From the NCBI RefSeq assembly GCF_014192515.1, contig NZ_JACHYB010000002.1, positions 682,001 to 746,000 on the forward strand: DNA of 64,000 nucleotides. The letters run 5' to 3'. Positions within the stretch are counted from its first letter, which is position 1; each line of letters starts with the position of its first letter. Position numbers and translations under genes: made by a program. Shown here piece after piece: positions 2,509-34,171 of the stretch. The notes beneath the pieces are model-generated. The model saw only the letters and a program-made list of their open reading frames with translations, was not told the DNA's origin and ran no database searches. The DNA is from Microbacter margulisiae. GTDB lineage: Bacteria > Bacteroidota > Bacteroidia > Bacteroidales > Paludibacteraceae.

Positions 2509-2706
2509 TCGTAATATTAAATCAGTTGGCACAATGATGCCCCTGCCATGTCGGGTTTGTAAATCCAACGCGACGAGGTTAAAGAAAACCTAACCCTAAC
2601 CCCGTTCCGGGTACTTCCCTTCATCAGAAGGGCAGAACAATCTGGCAAACAAACCAAGGCGAACAGGGTTGCCTGACCCATCGGATTGTTACATCCGACG
2701 AGACGG
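2509..2706. repeat. Diverged direct repeat, copy B
   Basis: The second copy of the repeat at 2115-2351, lacking the ~40-bp insert. It carries near-palindromes at both ends (around 2560-2575 and 2682-2697), reminiscent of REP-type elements. The 157 bp between the copies (2352-2508) start with AGCGGCTTTGC and end near GCAGAGCCGCT, a 10-of-11 inverted match, so the spacer itself could be a small insertion. Confidence 0.8.
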
Positions 2707-2877
2707 GAAGAGAATGGCCGAAAGCCGGGAGAGACCAATAAGCCGAAATGACAAAAAAGTTTTATTTCCGGAAAAAATCAAGACGGCTTCTTCTTCAATA
2801 GTAGCCGAAGAGAAGAGAAATGAGGGAAACCCTTCATCCCTGAAATTGCAGAAAGGAGATCAGTTTATCCCGAAAAA

Positions 2878-2889
2878 TGTGCCCGCACA
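2878..2889. promoter_or_regulatory. Candidate operator TGTGC-CC-GCACA
   Basis: A perfect 5-2-5 dyad located 28 bp upstream of the -7 box of the LacI-type gene, the position expected for a regulator site near -35. Assignment to this regulator is inference. Confidence 0.35.
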
Positions 2890-2916
2890 CACAACAAATA
2901 TCCAAACTTTATTTTT

Positions 2917-2938
2917 TATATTTGCAGTGGTTAACCAC
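2917..2938 (+). promoter_or_regulatory. LacI-type gene promoter with overlapping palindrome
   Basis: The -7 box TATATTTG lies at 2917-2924. The perfect 12-bp palindrome GTGGTTAACCAC (2927-2938) covers the expected transcription start, 13 bp before the ATG at 2951. A palindrome at the start point of a repressor gene suggests autoregulation. Confidence 0.6.
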
Positions 2939-2950
2939 GCACATTTTACT

Positions 2951-4018
2951 ATGGCTGAAAATAAAAATATCAAGATCAAAGATATTGCCCAAATGGCTGG
3001 CGTTTCGGTTGGCACAGTCGACCGCGTACTGCATGACAGGGGGCGGGTGTCTGAAGAAAACCTCAAAAAGGTAAAAGCCATTCTGGAAGTGGTCAATTAT
3101 CAGCCGAACATGATGGCCCGGACCCTTGCCTCAAAGAAACACTATAAAATTGCCGTCATCATTCCCGCTTTTCAACCGGGAGAGTACTGGGAAAAGGTAT
3201 ATAAAGGCATACAACGGGCTGAAGGAGAGTTTGCGGGCTATGGCGTACATCTTGAGAAATTTTTGTTCGACCAGCACAACAGCCATTCACTACGCAAAAT
3301 CATCAACGAGCTACTGGCAGGATCTTTTGATTTTAATGCCGTCTTAATGGCTACCCTGTTTTCGAACCTGATGATTGAATTTTCCCAAACGCTGGATCTT
3401 CTCAGGATTCCGTATAATTATATCGATGCCAATATCCCCGCACAGCAGCAATTGGCCTATTTTGGAACCAATTCCGGGGATAGCGGTGAGATCGGAGCCA
3501 AGATGTTACTGTATAACATCAAAAAGAATGCTGATATTGTCATTCCCAAAATATTAAACATAGGCGATCAGGACTCCAATCAATGGATCAACCGGGAAAC
3601 CGGATTCCTGGATTACCTGAACCATACCGCCTATAGCGGCACAATCCATCGTATTGAGCTGTATCTGGATGATCCGGTTTATAACTTCAGGGAGCTCGAT
3701 ATTCTGCTAAAGAGTAAACCGAAAATCAGGGGTGGCATTGTCTTTAACTCCAAAGCCCATATCCTTGCCAATTATCTGAAAATAAGAAACATCAACGACA
3801 TCAGTGTCATCGGGTATGATGTCATCGAAGCAAACATCAAACTGCTCAAGGAAGGCATCATCAAAGCCCTGATCGCACAACGCCCACAACAACAGGGCTA
3901 TGAAGGGATAAAATCGCTCTGCGAATACCTTATTCTAAAGAAGACCCCGCCAAAAGAAAATTATCTCCCTATTGATATTCTTTTGCCCGAAAACATTGAT
4001 TACTATCAAAACCAATGA
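2951..4018 (+). CDS. LacI-family transcriptional regulator
   Basis: A 355-residue sugar-responsive regulator. Residues ~8-60 form the LacI helix-turn-helix and hinge (IKDIAQMAGVSVGTVDRVLH, then RTLASKKHYKIAVIIP). The rest is a periplasmic-binding-protein-like effector domain. The start is the ATG at 2951, which directly follows the promoter at 2917-2938; the frame is open further upstream (from 2669), but that part runs through repeat DNA and the promoter. The gene lies 96 bp before the GH3 gene on the same strand, so it probably controls the GH3-GH88 pair and perhaps the arabinoside genes. The ligand cannot be read from sequence. The LacI assignment is secure. Confidence 0.92.
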   Translation: MAENKNIKIKDIAQMAGVSVGTVDRVLHDRGRVSEENLKKVKAILEVVNYQPNMMARTLASKKHYKIAVIIPAFQPGEYWEKVYKGIQRAEGEFAGYGVHLEKFLFDQHNSHSLRKIINELLAGSFDFNAVLMATLFSNLMIEFSQTLDLLRIPYNYIDANIPAQQQLAYFGTNSGDSGEIGAKMLLYNIKKNADIVIPKILNIGDQDSNQWINRETGFLDYLNHTAYSGTIHRIELYLDDPVYNFRELDILLKSKPKIRGGIVFNSKAHILANYLKIRNINDISVIGYDVIEANIKLLKEGIIKALIAQRPQQQGYEGIKSLCEYLILKKTPPKENYLPIDILLPENIDYYQNQ

Positions 4019-4034
4019 TTACACTATCCCGGTA

Positions 4035-4050
4035 TGTGTGCGCGAACACA
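4035..4050. promoter_or_regulatory. Candidate operator TGTGT-N6-ACACA
   Basis: An inverted repeat with a GCGCGA centre in the gap between the LacI-type regulator and GH3. It loosely resembles the TGTGC-CC-GCACA dyad at 2878. No good -7 box was found beside it, so the GH3 gene may also be read through from the regulator promoter. Confidence 0.3.
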
Positions 4051-4114
4051 ACCATTAAGACAATTCATATTCACGCATTTAACTATCTATTCACTCTATA
4101 AATTACACTACACT

Positions 4115-18228: not shown

Positions 18229-18438
18229 TAGAAAAATTTTTCTGTGTACGAAAACGGTCGGTCTATTTTCTAAATTATTGTTTATTTACCGGATATTTAT
18301 AAGAATGTTTTACCTGAAAAATACCATTCAGAACATCATCATTGAAAGTATATAAACAAACTCCCCAAGGGGGGGATCAAATCGTTTCCGAGCAAAAAAC
18401 CTGAAACACCGTAATCTTAACTTATTAAACTGATCATT

Positions 18439-19692
18439 ATGAAATTAGCAAAAAACAGCATTGGCATTGGAGATCGTTTTGCACATCAAGGAGTAGCACA
18501 ACTCCGCGCAATAGCAAAAGCAAACCAATATGGAGTCAATATCAGTCCGGTTTGGAATAAATCAAACCGTGAACACATATACATACATTCGCATCCTTCA
18601 GACGTTCGCAAAGAGGCTGATTTAGCGGTAGCTACGCTGGAATTTCAAGGAAAGTATTTTGTAGATGCCGACCATATCAATTTAGGCACAGTATCACCAT
18701 TTGTAGAAACCGCTGATTTCTTTACGCTTGATGTAGCAGCTTTCATCGGAAAAGAAAGCGCTGAAAATGATATTAAATTATTCGTTTCTTCATGCCAAAA
18801 ATACATAGGAGATCTGAGTATTCCGGGAATTGATCATCCGCTGCTCGTTTCAGAAGAATTACTCCAAAACATCGCCACAAAATTTTTAGCTGCCACCCAA
18901 CAGGCTTCCGAAATATATCATTTTCTTGAAAACAAAAAAGGGAAAGATAACTTTATCACGGAGGTATCTATGGATGAAGTGGAAAGCCCACAAACACCAA
19001 TTGAACTACTGTTTATTTTAAAAATGTTGGCAGACAAAGGAGTTCCAGCGCAGACTATTGCGCCAAAATTTACAGGAAGATTCAACAAAGGCGTTGATTA
19101 CAAAGGAGACACAAAACAATTTGCTAAAGAATTTGAAGAAGATGTGCTAATTCTTGATTTTGCTGTCAAAGAATTTGGTTTGCCGGAAGAGTTGAAATTA
19201 AGCATACATTCTGGCAGCGATAAATTTTCCATTTACCCAATTATGGCTCAAATCATCAAAAAGCATAACAAAGGATTACATCTGAAAACTGCAGGTACCA
19301 CCTGGCTTGAAGAAGTTATAGGATTGGCGCTTGCTGGGGGAAAAGCCCTTACAATCGCAAAGAAAATTTATGCTACTTCCTTGGGATTGAAAGATGAATT
19401 ATGCGCCCCTTATGCTGATGTAATCGACATTGACGTATCCCAATTACCATCGATTGAAGAAGTAAACAGTTGGGATAGCGAAAAGTTTGCAAATACCTTA
19501 CGACACATTCCGGGACATCCTGATTACAATCCGAATTTCCGCCAGTTGATCCACGTTGCATATAAAATTGCAGCGGATATGGGAACGACCTACACAGATT
19601 TATTGGAACAACACGCAGAAATCATCGGTCAATGCGTTGAAGAAAACATATTTGACCGGCACTTAAAACGATTATTTGGTTTGGGAGAATAG
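18439..19692 (+). CDS. uxaE: Tagaturonate/fructuronate epimerase-like protein (UxaE family)
   Basis: A 417-residue cytoplasmic protein resembling the UxaE family first described in Thermotoga, which interconverts D-tagaturonate and D-fructuronate, joining galacturonate to glucuronate catabolism. The N-terminus SIGIGDRFAHQGVAQLRA and the motifs VDADHINLGTVSPF (~74-88) and LKLSIHSGSDKFSIYPIM (~255-270) are typical as I remember the family. Histidines and acidic residues in these motifs are plausible metal ligands. It is the first gene of a six-gene same-strand operon ending at 25671; the SDR gene follows after 70 bp. Bacteroidota members are usually named tagaturonate epimerase family proteins and few have been assayed, so the substrate is not certain. 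Confidence 0.8.
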   Translation: MKLAKNSIGIGDRFAHQGVAQLRAIAKANQYGVNISPVWNKSNREHIYIHSHPSDVRKEADLAVATLEFQGKYFVDADHINLGTVSPFVETADFFTLDVAAFIGKESAENDIKLFVSSCQKYIGDLSIPGIDHPLLVSEELLQNIATKFLAATQQASEIYHFLENKKGKDNFITEVSMDEVESPQTPIELLFILKMLADKGVPAQTIAPKFTGRFNKGVDYKGDTKQFAKEFEEDVLILDFAVKEFGLPEELKLSIHSGSDKFSIYPIMAQIIKKHNKGLHLKTAGTTWLEEVIGLALAGGKALTIAKKIYATSLGLKDELCAPYADVIDIDVSQLPSIEEVNSWDSEKFANTLRHIPGHPDYNPNFRQLIHVAYKIAADMGTTYTDLLEQHAEIIGQCVEENIFDRHLKRLFGLGE

Positions 19693-19762
19693 GTCAAATC
19701 GCCCAAATATTTAAACATAAAAACATTAATACTATACAGAACAAAACAAAATACTCAACATT

Positions 19763-20575
19763 ATGCAAAACTTATTTGATTTACACGACAAAGTGGTTGT
19801 CATAACCGGTGGCACCGGAGTTTTAGGTAGTAAAATGTCAGAATATTTGGCAGAACAAGGGGCAAAAATTGCTATCTTGGCAAGAAATATTGCCAACGGA
19901 GAAGCGTTGGTCTCAAGTATTCACAAACAAGGCGGTACGGCAATATTTTTACAGGCAGATGTTCTTAATCAAGCCCAGTTGGAGACCAATGCGCGCAAAA
20001 TTATAGACACATTCGGACATATTGATGTATTAATTAATGGAGCCGGCGGCAATATGCCGGGAGCAACAATTTCTCCGGATAAAACGATCTTCGATCTAAA
20101 TATTGATGATTTTCGTAAAGTGGTAGATTTGAATCTGATGGGAACTGTTATTCCCACGATGGTTTTTGCAAAAGAAATGGTGAAACAACAGCAGGGTAGC
20201 ATCATTAATATTTCATCCGAATCAGCTTTACGACCACTCACACGCGTAGTGGGATATGGTGCCGCCAAAGCCGCTGTAACTAATTTCACAAAATATTTGT
20301 CCATAGAATTAGCCACTAAATTTGGGCAAGGATTTAGAGTAAATGCCATGGCTCCGGGCTTTTTCCTTACGGAACAAAACAGAACCTTACTGACTAATCC
20401 TGATGGTTCTTATACAGACAGGGCAAAAACAATCATAGCCCATACGCCGTTCGGACGTTTTGGCGAAGCAGAAGAATTATTAGGAACCTTGCATTGGCTG
20501 GCTAGTGACGCTTCCAAATTTGTTACAGGAACCTTGACCATAATTGACGGTGGATTTGATGCATTCGCCATTTAA
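19763..20575 (+). CDS. SDR oxidoreductase, probable D-mannonate (fructuronate) dehydrogenase
   Basis: A 270-residue short-chain dehydrogenase of classical type. The Rossmann motif TGGTGVLG occupies residues 15-22, NGAG follows at 92-95, the catalytic Ser lies in INISSES (~151-154) and Tyr165/Lys169 in YGAAK. It resembles the SDR-type UxuB of Bacillus, which reduces D-fructuronate to D-mannonate with NADH; the insert NMPGATISPDKTIFDL is common in that group. Lying 70 bp after the UxaE-like gene, it would use that enzyme's product. A role on another keto-acid sugar, such as 5-ketogluconate, is possible. Confidence 0.82.
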   Translation: MQNLFDLHDKVVVITGGTGVLGSKMSEYLAEQGAKIAILARNIANGEALVSSIHKQGGTAIFLQADVLNQAQLETNARKIIDTFGHIDVLINGAGGNMPGATISPDKTIFDLNIDDFRKVVDLNLMGTVIPTMVFAKEMVKQQQGSIINISSESALRPLTRVVGYGAAKAAVTNFTKYLSIELATKFGQGFRVNAMAPGFFLTEQNRTLLTNPDGSYTDRAKTIIAHTPFGRFGEAEELLGTLHWLASDASKFVTGTLTIIDGGFDAFAI

Positions 20576-20607
20576 CAACAAAAACACTACATATTAAACA
20601 AATAGAT

Positions 20608-21687
20608 ATGAGCCTAGAATTAAAAAAAAATTGTGCATATTCTTTATTAGTAGCTTCCAGTATGGGAGTCAGGATTACGCCGGTAAACGGACAACCCGTC
20701 CATAGCAGTCATCTGTTTGAAATGCAAGCTACCAGTGCTGAAACCAATGTGGCCAGCATAGCATCGTATTTAGGACTTCCCGTAAAAGTTTTGACTACCT
20801 TTGTAAAAGACAGCCCGATAGCTCAATTTATAAAAAACGATCTAAAAAGCAGACACATGGACTACGAAGGGCCGGAAATTGCCCAAGGAGATCCGTGGGG
20901 ATACCGGCATCAGTTTAATATTGCCGATAGCGGATTCGGGTTAAGAGGGCCGCGCGTTCAGAATGACCGGGCTGGCGAAGTAGGACGCACGCTGAATGTA
21001 AAAGATTTTGATCTGGAACGGATTTTTGGAAAAGAAGGGGTTCAGGTCGTACATTTGTCGGGATTGATTGGAGCACTCTCTCCTGAAACAAGTAATTTTT
21101 GCCTTGAACTAGCCCGTTTTGCTAAGAAACATGGAACGCGTATTTCATTCGACCTGAACTACAGAGCCTCTTTTTGGAAAGGACGTGAAAAAGAACTACG
21201 CGGGATCTTTACCGAAATTGCATCTGTATCAGATATTTTAATTGGCAACGAAGAAGATTTTCAACTATGTTTGGGTATAGAAGGTCCGGAAGCCGGAGGG
21301 AAAGGTATTGAAGCAAAAATCGAAGGATTCAAGGAAATGATTTCCAGAGTAAAAAAATCATTCCCCAATGCTTCTGTTTTTGCTACCACATTGCGACAGG
21401 TAATCAGTGCGAACGAACACCTTTGGGGAGCAATCATGCTCGAAGGAAACAATTGGCAGGTCATTGAACCGCGAAAAATAAATGTCCTTGACCGTATCGG
21501 TGGCGGCGATGGATTTGTAGGCGGTATGTTATATGCTATTCTGAAAGGCTGGGAACCTGAAAAATGGGGACAATTCGGATGGGCATCCGGAGCGTTGGCT
21601 ACAACATTTTTGACCGACTATGCACAACCTGCAGATGAAGAAATGATATGGAGCATCTGGGGAGGCAATGCAAGAGTAAAAAGATAG
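20608..21687 (+). CDS. PfkB-family sugar (acid) kinase
   Basis: A 359-residue ribokinase-fold kinase usually annotated as 2-keto-3-deoxygluconate kinase. FDLNYRASFWKGRE (~181-194) and NEEDF (~214-218) are typical of that group. The C-terminal PfkB signature is RIGGGDGF with the catalytic base Asp301; the usual GAGD has Gly in place of Ala. It starts 32 bp after the SDR gene. In a classical hexuronate pathway it would phosphorylate KDG, but no mannonate dehydratase or KDPG aldolase is present, while 6-phosphogluconate dehydrogenase is. A gluconate kinase activity is therefore a serious alternative and should be tested. Confidence 0.8.
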   Translation: MSLELKKNCAYSLLVASSMGVRITPVNGQPVHSSHLFEMQATSAETNVASIASYLGLPVKVLTTFVKDSPIAQFIKNDLKSRHMDYEGPEIAQGDPWGYRHQFNIADSGFGLRGPRVQNDRAGEVGRTLNVKDFDLERIFGKEGVQVVHLSGLIGALSPETSNFCLELARFAKKHGTRISFDLNYRASFWKGREKELRGIFTEIASVSDILIGNEEDFQLCLGIEGPEAGGKGIEAKIEGFKEMISRVKKSFPNASVFATTLRQVISANEHLWGAIMLEGNNWQVIEPRKINVLDRIGGGDGFVGGMLYAILKGWEPEKWGQFGWASGALATTFLTDYAQPADEEMIWSIWGGNARVKR

Positions 21688-21752
21688 GTAAAAAAGGAGG
21701 CAGAGGTAAAAAATAAGTAACAAAGAAAAACTATGGCCTCAAACTGAATATT

Positions 21753-23042
21753 ATGTTGTATTACGAAATAGGTTCTATACATCACGAACTCAATGCTAAT
21801 GACCTAAAAAAGGGTCTGTATGAAGCATTAGATAAACTGGGGAAGAAGACAAAAGTACTTGCTATTCCTCCCGATTATACGCGGCTGCCAAGCCGCTCCG
21901 GCGAACTTACCGAATTTACGTGGCAATATTATGGAGAGGCATTGACGGATGTATTGCCTGCATTAGGCACTCATACCCCCATGACTCCTCATCAGATTGC
22001 TCATATGTTCGGCTCATTGCCACCCTCGTTAATTCGCGATCACGATTGGAGGCATGACGTAGTAACCGTGGGAATGATCCCGGCGGAATATGTAAAAGAA
22101 GTTTCAGGAGGAGCTGTCAGCTTCCCCTGGCCTGCACAGGTTAACAAATTGCTTTTAGAGGGACATTTTGACTTGATCCTTTCCATTGGACAAGTTGTCC
22201 CTCATGAAGTAGTGGGAATGGCAAATTACAATAAGAACATCTTTGTCGGGACAGGAGGAGTGGAAGGCATCAATAAAAGCCATTTCGTAGGAGCTGTGTA
22301 TGGAATGGAAAAGATGATGGGACATGCCGATACGCCTGTGCGCCGCTTATTCAATTACGCTTCCGAGCATTTTACCAAACATCTTCCGATTGTGTATGTA
22401 CAAACGGTAGTGGGACTTGACAAAAGCGATGGAAAAATTAAGACACGCGGACTTTTTATTGGCGATGACTTTGAAGTATTCGATAAAGCTGCTAAATTGG
22501 CATTGCAAGTAAATTTCGAAATGCTGGACAAACCCTTAAAAAAGGTGGTGGTTTATCTGGATCCGACTGAATTTAAGAGTACATGGCTGGGAAATAAATC
22601 TGTTTACAGGACAAGGATGGCAATAGACGACGGTGGAGAACTGATCGTGATTGCACCGGCACTGAGAGAATTCGGTGAAGACAAGGAAATCGACCGTCTC
22701 ATCCGGAAATACGGATACTTCGGCACGCCCGCCACCCTCAGGGCATGCAATGAGAACGAAGATTTAAGAAACAACCTGAGCGCTGCCGCCCATCTGATTC
22801 ATGGATCCTCTGAAGGAAGATTCAGCATTACCTATTGCCCGGGAAAAGGACCGGAGAATCTGACAAAGGCAGAAATAGAAAGCGTTGGTTTCAAGTATGG
22901 CGATATTGACCAAATCACAGCATTGTACAATCCGGGGAAACTCCATGACGGATACAATACACTGGAAAACGGAGAAGAGATTTTCTATATCTCCAATCCT
23001 GCCCTGGGACTATGGGCATATAAGGATAGATTTGACTACTAA
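21753..23042 (+). CDS. LarA-family nickel-pincer racemase/epimerase
   Basis: A 429-residue member of the lactate racemase (LarA, DUF2088) superfamily, which uses the nickel-pincer nucleotide cofactor to racemise or epimerise 2-hydroxy acids. The catalytic residues align with LarA: DYTR (residues ~41-44), His74 in GTHTPM, His151 in VVPHEV, Lys161 (cofactor-attaching lysine position) in NYNKN and His177 in NKSHF. The spacings His-10-Lys-16-His are identical to LarA 174-184-200. It lies between the kinase and PdxB genes. Family members include D-gluconate 2-epimerases, and mannonate and gluconate are 2-epimers, so this enzyme could convert mannonate to gluconate. The cofactor genes larB, larC and larE are not in the window. 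Confidence 0.85.
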   Translation: MLYYEIGSIHHELNANDLKKGLYEALDKLGKKTKVLAIPPDYTRLPSRSGELTEFTWQYYGEALTDVLPALGTHTPMTPHQIAHMFGSLPPSLIRDHDWRHDVVTVGMIPAEYVKEVSGGAVSFPWPAQVNKLLLEGHFDLILSIGQVVPHEVVGMANYNKNIFVGTGGVEGINKSHFVGAVYGMEKMMGHADTPVRRLFNYASEHFTKHLPIVYVQTVVGLDKSDGKIKTRGLFIGDDFEVFDKAAKLALQVNFEMLDKPLKKVVVYLDPTEFKSTWLGNKSVYRTRMAIDDGGELIVIAPALREFGEDKEIDRLIRKYGYFGTPATLRACNENEDLRNNLSAAAHLIHGSSEGRFSITYCPGKGPENLTKAEIESVGFKYGDIDQITALYNPGKLHDGYNTLENGEEIFYISNPALGLWAYKDRFDY

Positions 23043-23053
23043 GCAAGAGATTT

Positions 23054-24184
23054 ATGAAGATAGTTATTGATGACAAAATCCCTTACATAAAAGGAGCTTT
23101 CGAAGAGAAAGCGGAAGTGATCTATCTCCCCGGATCAAAAACGACACCCGACATAGTGAAAGACGCTGATGTGTTGGTCACCCGTACACGCACAATTTGC
23201 AATGAAAAATTACTGTCCGGATCGTCGGTGAAATTTATCGCAACAGCGACCATCGGATTCGATCACATTGATATTGACTATTGCGCTACGCATGGCATTC
23301 AATGGACAAATGCCCCTGGCTGCAATTCCAAGTCGGTTGAACAATACATTGCCTCCGTATTGATGGTGCTGGCAACGAAAAAAAACCTGCAACTAAAAGA
23401 GTTGAGAATGGGAATCGTAGGGGTTGGAAATGTAGGAAAGAAAATTGCACGGTTGTGTGATCTGTTAGGAATGAAAGTACTGCTGAATGACCCTCCCCGG
23501 GAACGCACCGAAGGTTCATCCGGATTTGTATCGTTACAGACAGTTATGGAAGAAGCTGATATTATCACGCTGCACGTGCCATTAAACATGAAAGGAGAAG
23601 ATGCCACCTATCACCTTGCGGATGAACCGTTTTTTGCAAAGCTGAAAAGACAACCGGTGCTGATTAATTCATGCCGCGGCGAAGTGGTGGAAACGGAAGC
23701 CGTCAAAACAGCGATTGCTCAACAGCAAATCTCTTCTTTTGTATGCGATTGCTGGGAACACGAACCCGGAATCGATCTCGACTTATTAAGTCAGACAGAA
23801 CTGGCCACTCCCCATATTGCAGGTTATTCCAAAGACGGAAAAGCATTAGGGACACAAATGAGCGTGCATGCAGTCAATACGTTTTTCAATCTTGGTTTAA
23901 ATGACTGGCAGCCGTCAGGTGTCGAAAAACCTCAAAATCCTGTTATTGAAATTAATGGATCCGGCTTAACGGAACAACAAATATTGGCAAAAGCAATACT
24001 GGCAACATATGATATCCGGCAGGATGACGCTACTTTCAGAAACAATACAGCTCAGTTTGAGCAACTACGCGGCGACTACCCTACCCGTCGGGAATTTCCG
24101 GCCTATACCATTATTCCTACCAAAATAACAGATGAGACTATAGCCAAACTTCGACAACTGGGATTCAACATTGATAATAAATAA
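23054..24184 (+). CDS. pdxB: 4-phosphoerythronate dehydrogenase
   Basis: A 376-residue NAD-dependent D-2-hydroxyacid dehydrogenase of the PdxB type, which oxidises 4-phospho-D-erythronate in pyridoxal phosphate synthesis. Evidence: the N-terminal catalytic domain (MKIVIDDKIPYIKGAFE, ATIGFDHID), the NAD motif GIVGVGNVGKKIA (~121-133), the catalytic Arg/Glu/His region (NSCRGEVVE, CWEHEPGID, TPHIAGYSKDGK), and the extra C-terminal dimerisation domain that distinguishes PdxB from other family members. It begins 12 bp after the LarA-like gene and 33 bp before gnd, so it is cotranscribed with sugar-acid genes. This may be a chance arrangement or a link between B6 supply and sugar-acid flux. Confidence 0.92.
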   Translation: MKIVIDDKIPYIKGAFEEKAEVIYLPGSKTTPDIVKDADVLVTRTRTICNEKLLSGSSVKFIATATIGFDHIDIDYCATHGIQWTNAPGCNSKSVEQYIASVLMVLATKKNLQLKELRMGIVGVGNVGKKIARLCDLLGMKVLLNDPPRERTEGSSGFVSLQTVMEEADIITLHVPLNMKGEDATYHLADEPFFAKLKRQPVLINSCRGEVVETEAVKTAIAQQQISSFVCDCWEHEPGIDLDLLSQTELATPHIAGYSKDGKALGTQMSVHAVNTFFNLGLNDWQPSGVEKPQNPVIEINGSGLTEQQILAKAILATYDIRQDDATFRNNTAQFEQLRGDYPTRREFPAYTIIPTKITDETIAKLRQLGFNIDNK

Positions 24185-24216
24185 AAAAAGAACACTTAAT
24201 TAATCATCAACATTTT

Positions 24217-25671
24217 ATGAAAAAACTGGCAGACATCGGATTAATCGGATTAGCCGTGATGGGCGAAAATCTGGTTCTAAACATGGAGAGCAAAGGATAC
24301 ACAGTGAGCGTTTTTAACCGTACCGTAGAACGTGTTGATCATTTTGTAAATGGTCGCGGAGCAGGGAAAAATTTCATAGCAACACATTCCATTGCCGAAC
24401 TTTGCGCATCGCTCGAAAGACCGCGTAAGGTGATGATGCTTGTAAAAGCGGGCAAACCTGTGGATGATTTTATTGATCAATTATTACCTCACCTGGAGCC
24501 GAGCGATATCATCATCGACGGGGGAAATTCCCATTTCCCGGATACTATCCGGCGCACTAAATACGTTGAAAGCAAAGGGCTACTTTATATCGGAACCGGT
24601 GTCTCAGGAGGTGAAGAAGGTGCTTTGAACGGCCCCTCAATGATGCCTGGCGGATCACCCGCTGCCTGGTCTGCCGTCAAAGATATTTTTCAATCTATTT
24701 CCGCAAAAGTGGAAGACGGAACACCTTGCTGCGACTGGGTCGGCGAGGGCGGTGCCGGTCATTTTGTCAAAATGGTGCACAACGGCATCGAATATGGCGA
24801 CATGCAAATTATCAACGAAGCTTACCAGATTATGAAAGACATGCTGGGAATGTCTGCTGACGAAATGCATGAAGTATTTAAGGCTTGGAACGAAGGCGAT
24901 CTCGATTCATACCTCATCGAAATTACACGTGATATTTTAGCATACAAAGATGAAAATGGAGAACCTCTGGTTGAAAAAATACTCGACACGGCAGGCCAAA
25001 AAGGTACCGGAAAATGGACAGCCGTATCGGCTCTCGATCTTGGCATTCCTTTGACACTGATTGGAGAATCGGTCTTTGCCCGTTGTTTATCCGCTCAAAA
25101 AGAGATGCGCGTTGAAGCCTCAAAATTAATACAAGGCCCTAAAGTGAATTTCACAGGAGATAAAGCTCAGATGATTTCGGATCTGAAAGATGCGTTATTT
25201 GGAGCAAAAATTATTTCATATGCTCAGGGATATAACCTGATGATGGAAGCGGCCAAAGAATACGAGTGGAACCTGAATTACGGAGGAATCGCATTAATGT
25301 GGCGTGGAGGATGTATCATCCGTTCTGTCTTCTTAGGCGATATTAAAAAGGCATTTGATAAGAACCCGAACCTGGAACATCTGTTGTTCGATCCTTATTT
25401 CAAAAACATTATCGAAGCAGCCCAGTCCGGATGGCGTCGCGTATGCGCAGCCGCTCTCTCCAATGGTATCCCTGTGCCAGCGTTAACCGCAGCATTATGT
25501 TATTTCGACGGATTACGCACGGAACGTCTCCCGGCTAATCTTTTACAAGCACAACGCGACTATTTCGGCGCACATACTTACGAAAGAGTCGATAGACCGC
25601 GTGGCGAATTCTTCCATACCAACTGGACAGGAAAAGGTGGAGATACAGCTTCAACAACTTATGTAGTATAG
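24217..25671 (+). CDS. gnd: 6-phosphogluconate dehydrogenase, decarboxylating
   Basis: A 484-residue enzyme oxidising 6-phosphogluconate to ribulose-5-phosphate and CO2 with NADP+. The cofactor motif GLAVMGENLVLNM is at residues ~11-23. The catalytic motif GEGGAGHFVKMVHNGIEYGD (~178-197) contains the catalytic lysine and the substrate-binding HNGIEYGD. GQKGTGKWT and the conserved C-terminal RTERLPANLLQAQRDYFGAHTYERVDRPRG region identify the family. Full length for the dimeric long-chain form (~470-485). It is the last gene of the hexuronate-type operon. Its presence there, rather than next to zwf, suggests that the operon makes 6-phosphogluconate. Confidence 0.97.
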   Translation: MKKLADIGLIGLAVMGENLVLNMESKGYTVSVFNRTVERVDHFVNGRGAGKNFIATHSIAELCASLERPRKVMMLVKAGKPVDDFIDQLLPHLEPSDIIIDGGNSHFPDTIRRTKYVESKGLLYIGTGVSGGEEGALNGPSMMPGGSPAAWSAVKDIFQSISAKVEDGTPCCDWVGEGGAGHFVKMVHNGIEYGDMQIINEAYQIMKDMLGMSADEMHEVFKAWNEGDLDSYLIEITRDILAYKDENGEPLVEKILDTAGQKGTGKWTAVSALDLGIPLTLIGESVFARCLSAQKEMRVEASKLIQGPKVNFTGDKAQMISDLKDALFGAKIISYAQGYNLMMEAAKEYEWNLNYGGIALMWRGGCIIRSVFLGDIKKAFDKNPNLEHLLFDPYFKNIIEAAQSGWRRVCAAALSNGIPVPALTAALCYFDGLRTERLPANLLQAQRDYFGAHTYERVDRPRGEFFHTNWTGKGGDTASTTYVV

Positions 25672-31753: not shown

Positions 31754-32855
31754 CCTAAAGTTTCTTATATCATGTGTCGGGCGATAGCATCACCCACTAT
31801 CGGCTTATAGCGTCACCTACTATCGCACTGTCAATGTCATTAAGTTAAGGCCATCAGAAAGTATTTTTATTGTTTTTCAGCAACTTCGGTTTACCTCTTT
31901 TTCTGTATTTGTCAGTATCTCTTTCAAATCTTCTATTTGGTCGTATTGGTATCGTGTGTTTTTTAAACAACGCTTTGAGTTCTGATACTATTTCGTTCAT
32001 ATCCTTTTCCGAGAAAAACAGTAAAATTATCCTGTCTTTGAGAAAGCCGTATGATAAATTGCTATTGACTTTGTATTGATATTGATATTTGGTTGATTCT
32101 TTGGCTAATTCATCATTTATGTCTCCAACGATTAAACTCTGAACGTTTGACACAAATAAGGCTGCATAAAAATCCTGCAATATACAATGCTCTGAATAGC
32201 CTGAAAAATGTTCTATTTTTATCTTGTTCTTCAATTCATCATAAAACGTTTCGATTCCCCATCTTAAAAAATACAGTTCTTTAAATAGAAAGTTTGGATA
32301 TTTTTGTGTGTCAGACAAAGAGGTTATCAGTATTTCTATTTCTCCATCAGGTAGTTCAACCCGAACCAGCCGGACATCTTTGAATGTATTTTTCGAATAC
32401 GGCTTATCTGAAAGTTTTATGTTCTTTCCAGGTTGCATTCGAGCAATAGCTGACTGTAGTCCACTCTGGTAAAATTCCCGGGTGAGGTTACTAAAATCAG
32501 CTTTAACCCGGATGAGAAAATCTACTCCTTTTTCAAAATGCTCATAAATCAAATTGAAAGAAGGATAACCTCTATCGTAAATAATCAAGTCGTTAGCTTT
32601 TGCAAAAACCAAATGATTCAACGCCAAAACACTCTCTCCAGTTGACAGTGGAGCTAAAACACCATCTATGGCAAACCGATTCAAAACATCGTACAATACC
32701 GATATTCTGGCCTGTACCACCCCGGTTTCAGATTGGTTTTTAGTCCTGCCATAAATGCTTTCCAACTCCTGAGTATCGGGCAAAACCAATCTTGACCCAT
32801 CAATAGCCAACAACCTAAATCCATTCCAGAGCTTTATCGATGCATCATTGTCTGT

Positions 32856-34171
32856 CACTAGTGTCCCATTAAAATTGGGGCGAATTAAAAATCAAATAAA
32901 CTTGGCACATTAAGCCTAAAACGATCTTTGTCATTTTGGAATTTAGTTCTCTCGAAGAGGTCCCGAAGATGAGTTTTATCAGTTAATGACATACTCAATA
33001 TCTGCAAAATCTCATATGTACTACTGTCAAGTTGCATGTCCTTTTGGATTATTGCCACCAGACAATATGTGCATATAGCTACGTAGATTTGAATCCGAAC
33101 AGCGTTTTCAGTTGTACCCCAAAATTTCTTTATTTTCAGATGTTGTTTCAACCATTTGAAGAACAGCTCAACTTGCCAGCGGTTCTTGTAAAGTTCGGCA
33201 ACATGAAGAGCTGAAATATGCATCGCATTGGTTAAGAAAACAAACTCACGTTCTTGTTCTTCATCCCAGTATCTGACCAAACGAAGAGTTCCCGGATAGT
33301 ATTGACTTGGATAAAATCCCGTCAATTCAATCATCACATCTGAAAGCACATTCTCAGGTAACCTGCGTCTCCATTTGATGGATTTGTATTGCAGGTTCTT
33401 CTTGGCTCTAACAACAAAGAAAGCTTCTATCTGATGAATCTTATACAGCATTTTGAAGCTGTTGTACGCTCTGTCAAATATATAATATGATCCTGATTCA
33501 TACGGAATTTCTTTCATTGCCTTTGAGTCATGTACTGACGCTTCAGTGATATGGAAAAATGCTGGTATCTGTGTTTCTACATCGTATAATGTATGTACTT
33601 TGATCCCACCTTTCTTCTTACGGAACTTCACCCACCAGAAGGCTGAAAGACATAAGTCAATCGTTGTTGAATCGAAAGCGTAGACATTACCACCAAGTTT
33701 GAAAATGTCAGAAACTCGTTTCTCTCTCGCGTCGTTTATCAGGTAGTAAGCATACTCTTCAAAAATGTGATAATCTCTGTCTTGATTGGCTCTTGCCAGA
33801 GATGATTTTGAAACATTTTTGCCAAAACCCAAATGGTAAGATTTGGAGTGATGAGCATCAAGTGCGACAATCAAATCTCATAAACTTTCTCGGTTGGACA
33901 GTTGTCCGAACATCAGAGCAAGTAATTGATTCCAGCATTTAAAATGCGTTACATATTTGTCGCCATCGAACTTGCGAACAATGTAGTTGAACTTATTCCG
34001 ATCCAAGAAAGAGGCTAACTGAGCGAAAACGTATTTTTCCTTATGCATTTACAAATCTGTTTAAGTATTGCAAAAGTGCAAATTGAAATCCGTTTAATCG
34101 AAAAAACCCAGTAATGAACTAAATTTCAAATATTTCAAAGAGCTTCCTTAGATTTTAATGGGACAGCAATG
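32856..34171 (-). mobile_element. Inner IS4-group insertion sequence, 1316 bp
   Basis: The ends match at 17 of 20 positions (CACTAGTGTCCCATTAAAAT at 32856; CATTGCTGTCCCATTAAAAT read inward from 34171). A perfect 9-bp target duplication ATTGTCTGT lies at 32847-32855 and 34172-34180. Both ends and the duplication are intact, so the insertion looks fairly recent. Confidence 0.93.
32885..34048 (-). pseudogene. IS4-group transposase with one premature stop
   Basis: A 387-codon frame from the ATG at 34048 is open except for a TGA at 33878-33880. The context NRESL-stop-DLIVALDAHH suggests that an arginine codon (CGA or AGA) was lost. The N-terminal DUF4372-like domain (KYVFAQLASFLDRNKFNYIV) is followed by DDE residues in YAFDSTTID, YIFDRAYNSF and the signature YKNRWQVELFFKWLKQ. 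All other parts are intact. A protein starting after the stop would lack the N-terminal DNA-binding region. Confidence 0.9.

Follow-up and report, generated by a model that had tools for sequence, protein, structure and literature searches.

What is the role of an operon that joins enzymes of hexuronate breakdown to a LarA-type epimerase, a PfkB-family kinase and Gnd, the decarboxylating 6-phosphogluconate dehydrogenase? Such an operon was found in the pectin-degrading bacterium Microbacter margulisiae (Bacteroidales, Paludibacteraceae), within a stretch of 64,000 nucleotides (hereafter the window; C2:682001-746000) of a 3.56-Mb genome that consists of two contigs (C1 and C2) and is scored 100% complete. 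Six genes are arranged head to tail on the forward strand at window positions 18439-25671, in the order uxaE, mannonate-type short-chain dehydrogenase/reductase (SDR), pfkB, larA, pdxB and gnd, separated by 70, 32, 65, 11 and 32 bases (Table 1). The original prediction, made from the window alone, had placed five of these genes in one operon, which is confirmed by profile matches, and had overlooked the sixth, pdxB. We propose, with a probability of about 0.62, that the operon encodes a branch of galacturonate catabolism running through free gluconate into the pentose phosphate pathway, with the epimerase acting before the kinase. That mannonate is linked to 6-phosphogluconate here, whichever of the two enzymes acts first, we consider highly probable.

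Gene content, gene order, active-site residues and the operator were read from the sequence, and from these we infer each substrate and the order of epimerase and kinase. In the proposed route, UxaC and an ExuT-like carrier, both encoded elsewhere under the same operator, would supply tagaturonate, which UxaE would convert to fructuronate and the SDR would reduce to mannonate. The LarA-type enzyme would invert mannonate at C2 to give gluconate, the PfkB kinase would phosphorylate gluconate to 6-phosphogluconate, and Gnd would yield ribulose-5-phosphate, recovering the reductant used by the SDR if the cofactors match. PdxB may clear the Gnd inhibitor 4-phosphoerythronate, contribute to vitamin B6 synthesis, or do both. 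For the first enzyme of the operon, the matches in a structure search were solved UxaE chains.

Table 1. Features of the operon and its upstream region (window coordinates)
Feature	Position	Strand	Basis
Probable LacI-type operator, 177 bases before uxaE	18239..18261	+	matrix match, 19.2 bits
uxaE, tagaturonate/fructuronate epimerase family, 417 aa	18439..19692	+	PF16257, 186.2 bits (cut-off 27.1)
SDR, mannonate-type (fructuronate reductase)	19763..20575	+	NF006132 'D-mannonate oxidoreductase', 383.9 bits (cut-off 281)
PfkB-family kinase, proposed gluconate (or mannonate) kinase	20608..21687	+	PF00294, 72.4 bits (cut-off 25.8)
LarA-type C2 epimerase, group 18, proposed mannonate/gluconate epimerase	21753..23042	+	NF052594, 654.1 bits
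pdxB, 4-phosphoerythronate dehydrogenase family	23054..24184	+	NF001309, 460.7 bits (cut-off 434); conserved place
gnd, decarboxylating 6-phosphogluconate dehydrogenase	24217..25671	+	TIGR00873, 760 bits (cut-off 426.7)

The arrangement was compared with that of related loci. Scanning 84,980 species genomes with LarA gave 344 stretches, and the best 80 were used; their LarA proteins are 78-90% identical to that of the window, and by title nearly all belong to Bacteroidota. Most are bins, and four are named strains (L060, L067, L084, L086). A locus was counted as having room if it extended more than 1.3 kb before or more than 4 kb after larA, and four kinds of small open reading frame (ORF) were skipped. 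Under these rules, pfkB is the next gene upstream of larA in 68 of 70 loci, the exceptions being L036, where an unlabelled ORF lies between, and L072. Downstream, pdxB is at most three genes away in 55 of 56 loci and gnd at most four in 54 of 56, the exceptions on this side being L066 and L082. The conserved order indicates that the grouping of these genes is not due to chance. As to gene presence in the 80 loci, many of which are cut by contig ends, uxaE was counted in 51, the SDR in 66, uxaC in 31, kdgK in 27, eda in 23 and uxuA in 17, and in all 17 of the latter uxuA lies at most 400 bases before pfkB, with larA retained. All proteins clustered as UxaC, KdgK, Eda, UxuA or carrier match the corresponding protein of the M. 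margulisiae genome. The occurrence of these genes of the classical (Ashwell) route within the loci suggests that many members hold both exits from mannonate side by side. The SDR varies more, being merely 41-46% identical to the window SDR in many Prolixibacteraceae-type loci. One bin filed as Phycisphaerales carries the pfkB-larA pair alone (L066:8916-11290), the other operon genes being absent, with a LarA 82% identical to that of the window; this may reflect gene transfer between phyla or misplacement of the contig. A survey of the class with NF052594 matched one of 395 genomes, and since this was M. margulisiae itself, the survey gave no distribution.

Small ORFs are repeatedly inserted in the gaps of these operons, mostly between pfkB, larA and pdxB (L014, L015, L018, L020, L025 and others); they encode four-helix-bundle-like proteins in 18 of the 80 loci and GxxExxY proteins in 9, the family names being assigned by reading only. 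Between larA and pdxB, 41 of the 80 loci have a Gfo/Idh/MocA oxidoreductase of unassigned substrate, which the window does not have.

The LarA-type protein passes the curated cut-off of 500 bits for NF052594, a model named 'nickel-dependent putative hexonate epimerase', and its sole significant match among solved structures is GntE2 of Thermotoga maritima (4nar, E = 2.8e-34). Residues were placed by alignment to 4nar and by the residue list of PMC7583248. Residues R44, K161 and H177, which bind the nickel-pincer nucleotide (NPN) cofactor, and the catalytic D41, H74, H151 and K282 are all present and are invariant in 81 LarA sequences (80 loci and the window). Likewise invariant are E152, V153 and W278, the last of which, by our own placement, would be the helix-11 tryptophan of PMC7583248. 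The analysis supports the assignment of the protein to a hexonate-type group and shows a full catalytic set. LarA proteins of groups 19 and 20 convert mannonate to gluconate, GntE2 doing so in vitro with free mannonate (PMC7583248). With GntE1 and GntE2 of these groups the window protein shares the cofactor and catalytic residues and the 'EV' after the second histidine, but it falls in group 18, for which a hexonate substrate is hypothesised (PMC7583248). The enzyme could instead act on another hexonate pair, e.g., altronate/allonate or idonate/gulonate, in which case 6-phosphogluconate would not be the aim of the operon. A different native substrate is indeed suspected for the related group 19 (PMC7583248), but the neighbouring SDR should yield mannonate and a gnd gene in the operon fits gluconate, and we regard this alternative as improbable.

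The kinase was compared with the 2-keto-3-deoxygluconate (KDG) kinase of the same genome, encoded by a separate kdgK. The two proteins are 29% identical, and their scores to the kinase half of NF041633 are 173.1 bits for the operon kinase and 504.9 for KdgK (both below the fusion-model cut-off of 700). Among 26 LarA-linked kinases and 11 KdgK proteins, the KdgK columns G35, G36, Y90 and Y105 correspond to S43, A44, N104 and N119 in the operon kinases, whereas R121 and R186 are shared by the two groups. The four changed columns are presumably those that bind KDG in solved KDG kinases, although a literature search gave no source for this, and the altered pocket pattern fits a sugar acid other than KDG. 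That the operon kinase is distinct from the genome's KDG kinase, as originally predicted, is supported by the separate kdgK, the low identity and the pocket columns; gluconate is its proposed substrate. One might still read the protein as a KDG kinase and the operon as an Ashwell operon with its remaining genes elsewhere, larA and gnd serving otherwise. Such a reading would agree with the nearest solved structure of the family and with the presence of uxuA, kdgK and eda in the genome, but against it stand a dedicated kdgK beside eda and uxaC, the presence of both kinases in 27 of the 80 loci, and the differing pocket. Furthermore, the 17 loci with uxuA just before pfkB retain larA, although a KDG role is possible in those. 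We therefore consider this reading very improbable.

An alternative is the other order of the two steps. PfkB could be a mannonate kinase and LarA could epimerise 6-phosphomannonate to 6-phosphogluconate, as in extracts of Lactobacillus suebicus, where both activities were measured and mannonate gave no gluconate, the genes there being unknown (PMC6978723). That pfkB and larA form an inseparable pair in the loci of relatives as well would suit this order. However, the characterised GntE proteins use free mannonate (PMC7583248), and the kinase candidates of L. suebicus are homologues of gluconate kinase that are not stated to be PfkB proteins in the accessible text (PMC6978723). Phosphorylation before epimerisation is thus considered unlikely.

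According to the original prediction, uxuA and the 2-keto-3-deoxy-6-phosphogluconate aldolase gene (eda) were absent; this holds for the operon and the window but not for the genome. The single genome match to UxuA (PF03786) lies at C2:479775, adjoining a GH115 gene and another SDR of the mannonate type, and the single match to Eda (PF01081) at C1:1152250, both outside the window. UxaC (PF02614) also has a single match, in the gene row carrier-eda-kdgK-uxaC of contig C1. The carrier is named ExuT by likeness only, its best model being a galactonate transporter, below cut-off. The classical uxuA-kdgK-eda route is therefore complete in this genome, and the full set amounts to a partial refutation of the original prediction. 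With uxuA, kdgK and eda present, the operon represents a branch rather than a replacement of the Ashwell route, and mannonate is the branch point. A zwf gene, which had also been sought, was found in the genome together with a pgl-like gene (pgl by reading). No Gnd relative is found in the 12-kb stretch around zwf or in 14 such stretches of relatives, a second gnd elsewhere not being searched for.

In relatives, a palindromic site recurs in the uxaE promoter and in that of a LacI-family gene. A matrix was built from 49 distinct sites of relatives and none from the window; since the best match per promoter was chosen (at most 4 mismatches, close relatives L008 and L009 included), the likeness among the training sites is partly built in. 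The best match in the whole window is the site before uxaE, and the next separate match scores 7.7 bits. Within 20 kb around uxaC the best match (18.9 bits) lies upstream of uxaC and the next separate one scores 3.9, and within 20 kb around uxuA the best reaches just 4.7. The common operator suggests that the operon is in one regulon with the carrier, eda, kdgK and uxaC, with uxuA outside. Direct comparison of three upstream regions of the genome itself gave 18-mers with at least 3 mismatches and no clear motif. A promoter and terminator scan (18 promoter-like sequences against 19.3 expected, 15 terminator-like against 7.6) was not used. The match of 7.7 bits, at 4033-4055, lies at the start of a GH3 gene just after a LacI-type gene (2669-4018) and is perhaps a related operator of the arabinan cluster.

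The pdxB gene of the operon is the only PdxB match over cut-off in the genome, and PdxB is over cut-off in 48 of 51 genomes (twice in G425), which makes a role in vitamin B6 synthesis likely. In addition, 4-phosphoerythronate inhibits 6-phosphogluconate dehydrogenase, and Bacillus mutants unable to clear it become intoxicated on carbon sources entering the pentose phosphate pathway (PMC6449344, PMC12445079). A pdxB placed before gnd would make sense as protection of Gnd.

The gluconate route is thus favoured by a kinase that is not KdgK, a LarA of hexonate type with its full catalytic set, the conserved gene order, the isolated pfkB-larA pair of L066 and an operator common to the galacturonate genes. 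It is also favoured by GntK, which had been sought as well and is over cut-off in none of the 51 genomes, with weak matches in 16, the FGGY gluconokinase not being searched for. Not supported in the original prediction are the novelty of the route and a lack of the Ashwell enzymes. Several observations weigh against the route. The branch is dispensable for hexuronate use, uxuA, kdgK and eda being in the genome, and L. suebicus, for the same task, phosphorylates first (PMC6978723). LarA is distant from GntE2 (122 bits in phmmer), and no assayed group 18 LarA was found in the accessible literature. The nearest solved relative of the operon kinase is a KDG kinase (2afb). Finally, the genome has no LarC match, LarE is not found over cut-off (best 28.6 against 150 bits), and the one LarB match (54.9 against 175) is probably PurE; the original prediction leaves this absence of NPN synthesis genes unexplained.

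The absence is shared by many relatives. LarB and LarC were checked in 50 of the 80 genomes, 30 being left out, mostly on short contigs. LarC was found in 21 of the 50, all of which also have LarB over cut-off; the other 29 have neither, LarE not being searched for there. Incomplete bins as the main cause were rejected because zwf, which served to gauge completeness, occurs in 20 of the 21 genomes with larBC and in 26 of the 29 without. As larB and larC are often adjacent, they can drop from a bin jointly, and single genomes may be misjudged. Three of the four named strains have larBC and one, Maribellus luteus, does not. Sunxiuqinia elliptica and Mangrovibacterium marinum are larBC-positive. 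Reading of five larBC regions showed larB and larC together with a PP-loop gene (taken as larE), a NikR-like gene (confirmed by model in one of the five) and a membrane protein. LarA is the only Lar_N protein in 19 of the 21 larBC-containing genomes (two in G429, three in G439), and the cofactor is there presumably made for LarA; among the 29 others, G415 and G432 hold a second, classical LarA. On the LarA tree the larBC state changes at least 11 times, or 3 times if starred branches alone are counted, and given the bins and the weak tree, part of the pattern may be noise. The presence of the Gfo/Idh/MocA gene after larA, in 14 of 21 genomes with larBC and 15 of 29 without, was rejected as a correlate. 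In one genome, larC extends over two overlapping frames adjoining an intact larB (G399:C23:2591-3825; L117), which may reflect decay, assembly error or frameshifting, the last presumably as in L. plantarum.

LarA could be a dead relic in larBCE-less genomes, M. margulisiae included. The lack of LarC and LarE matches, the PurE-like LarB match and the 29 relatives without both genes could be cited for this, but larA is equally constrained with or without larBC in the pairs compared: its ratio of nonsynonymous to synonymous differences (pN/pS) is 0.037-0.092 in six pairs without and 0.035-0.086 in six pairs with larBC, several pairs being saturated at silent sites. These values are within the range of pfkB and gnd, and pdxB is looser (0.097-0.291). 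Moreover, the seven catalytic and cofactor residues are invariant in 21 LarA sequences with larBC, 30 without (window included) and 30 unscored ones, and gene order is conserved. A relic can therefore hardly be credited. Five LarA columns separate the two classes by threshold (6, 11, 27, 31, 211), none of them catalytic or cofactor-binding. Somewhat tentatively, at rather less than even odds, we suggest that in many Bacteroidales LarA works despite lost NPN genes, the cofactor or an intermediate coming from other cells, the cofactor being made by enzymes yet unknown, or a substitute cofactor occupying the same site. The reverse case, larBCE without larA, has been reported (PMC11796402); a literature search on nickel-pincer genomes, LarA auxotrophs and NPN salvage, covering few subscription papers, found nothing on larA without larBCE. 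If true, this recurrent loss of larBCE while larA stays unchanged would give a first sign of cofactor sharing or replacement, and in any case the larBCE-less genomes raise the question of the source of the nickel cofactor.

Upstream of the operon, the window contains genes for plant side chains, which encode a LacI-type regulator, a GH3 enzyme, a GH88-family protein, an alpha-galactosidase-type protein and a GH127 enzyme, together with a sodium symporter, ribulokinase, aldose epimerase and arabinofuranosidase. A 21-base unit repeated in tandem (10.9 copies, 1868-2096) lies inside an ORF on the reverse strand (1859-2293), stays open and encodes repeated VSMHIVG-like peptides. A DDE transposase gene (PF01609) is located at 31854-32858.

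The route had been predicted as new, but it is already published for Thermotoga and, in a phosphorylated variant, for L. suebicus. T. maritima has gnd-uxaRED-gntEK under UxaR and a separate kdgAK-uxuBA operon (PMC3750489), and the proposal of a hexuronate-gluconate route there is credited to Rodionova 2012 (via PMC7583248, PMC6978723 and PMC3750489). In both organisms one operon combines UxaE, a reductase, an epimerase of LarA type, a kinase and gnd, alongside a separate operon of uxuA-kdgK-eda type. They differ in the LarA group (20 in T. maritima, 18 in M. margulisiae), in LarC (a match in T. maritima, none in the M. margulisiae genome), in regulation (GntR-family UxaR there, a LacI-type site here) and in pdxB, which is present here and not told of for T. 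maritima in the accessible text. The kinase there is GntK, which we take to be of FGGY type, and here PfkB. Compared with KDG kinases (2afb and the genome's own KdgK), the operon kinase has the PfkB fold family and two arginines in common, but four pocket columns and its neighbours differ. The galacturonate-phosphoketolase pathway of L. suebicus likewise couples mannonate to 6-phosphogluconate and Gnd, but with the kinase first and the epimerase acting on the phosphate (PMC6978723). The classical isomerase route is alike in the upper steps to mannonate, which then passes to UxuA, KdgK and Eda, encoded elsewhere in this genome. Literature searches covering few subscription papers found nothing on the route in Bacteroid- taxa or on a PfkB gluconate kinase. 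If true, our reading would carry the mannonate-to-gluconate link beyond Thermotoga to a group of pectin-degrading Bacteroidales, would assign functions to the LarA proteins of group 18 and to a gluconate kinase of the PfkB family, and would provide a redox-neutral path from galacturonate to pentose phosphate, which is sought by pectin biotechnology. Relative to the known route, what is new here is the missing cofactor genes, the LacI-type site, pdxB, the PfkB kinase, the LarA of group 18 and the spread among Bacteroidales.

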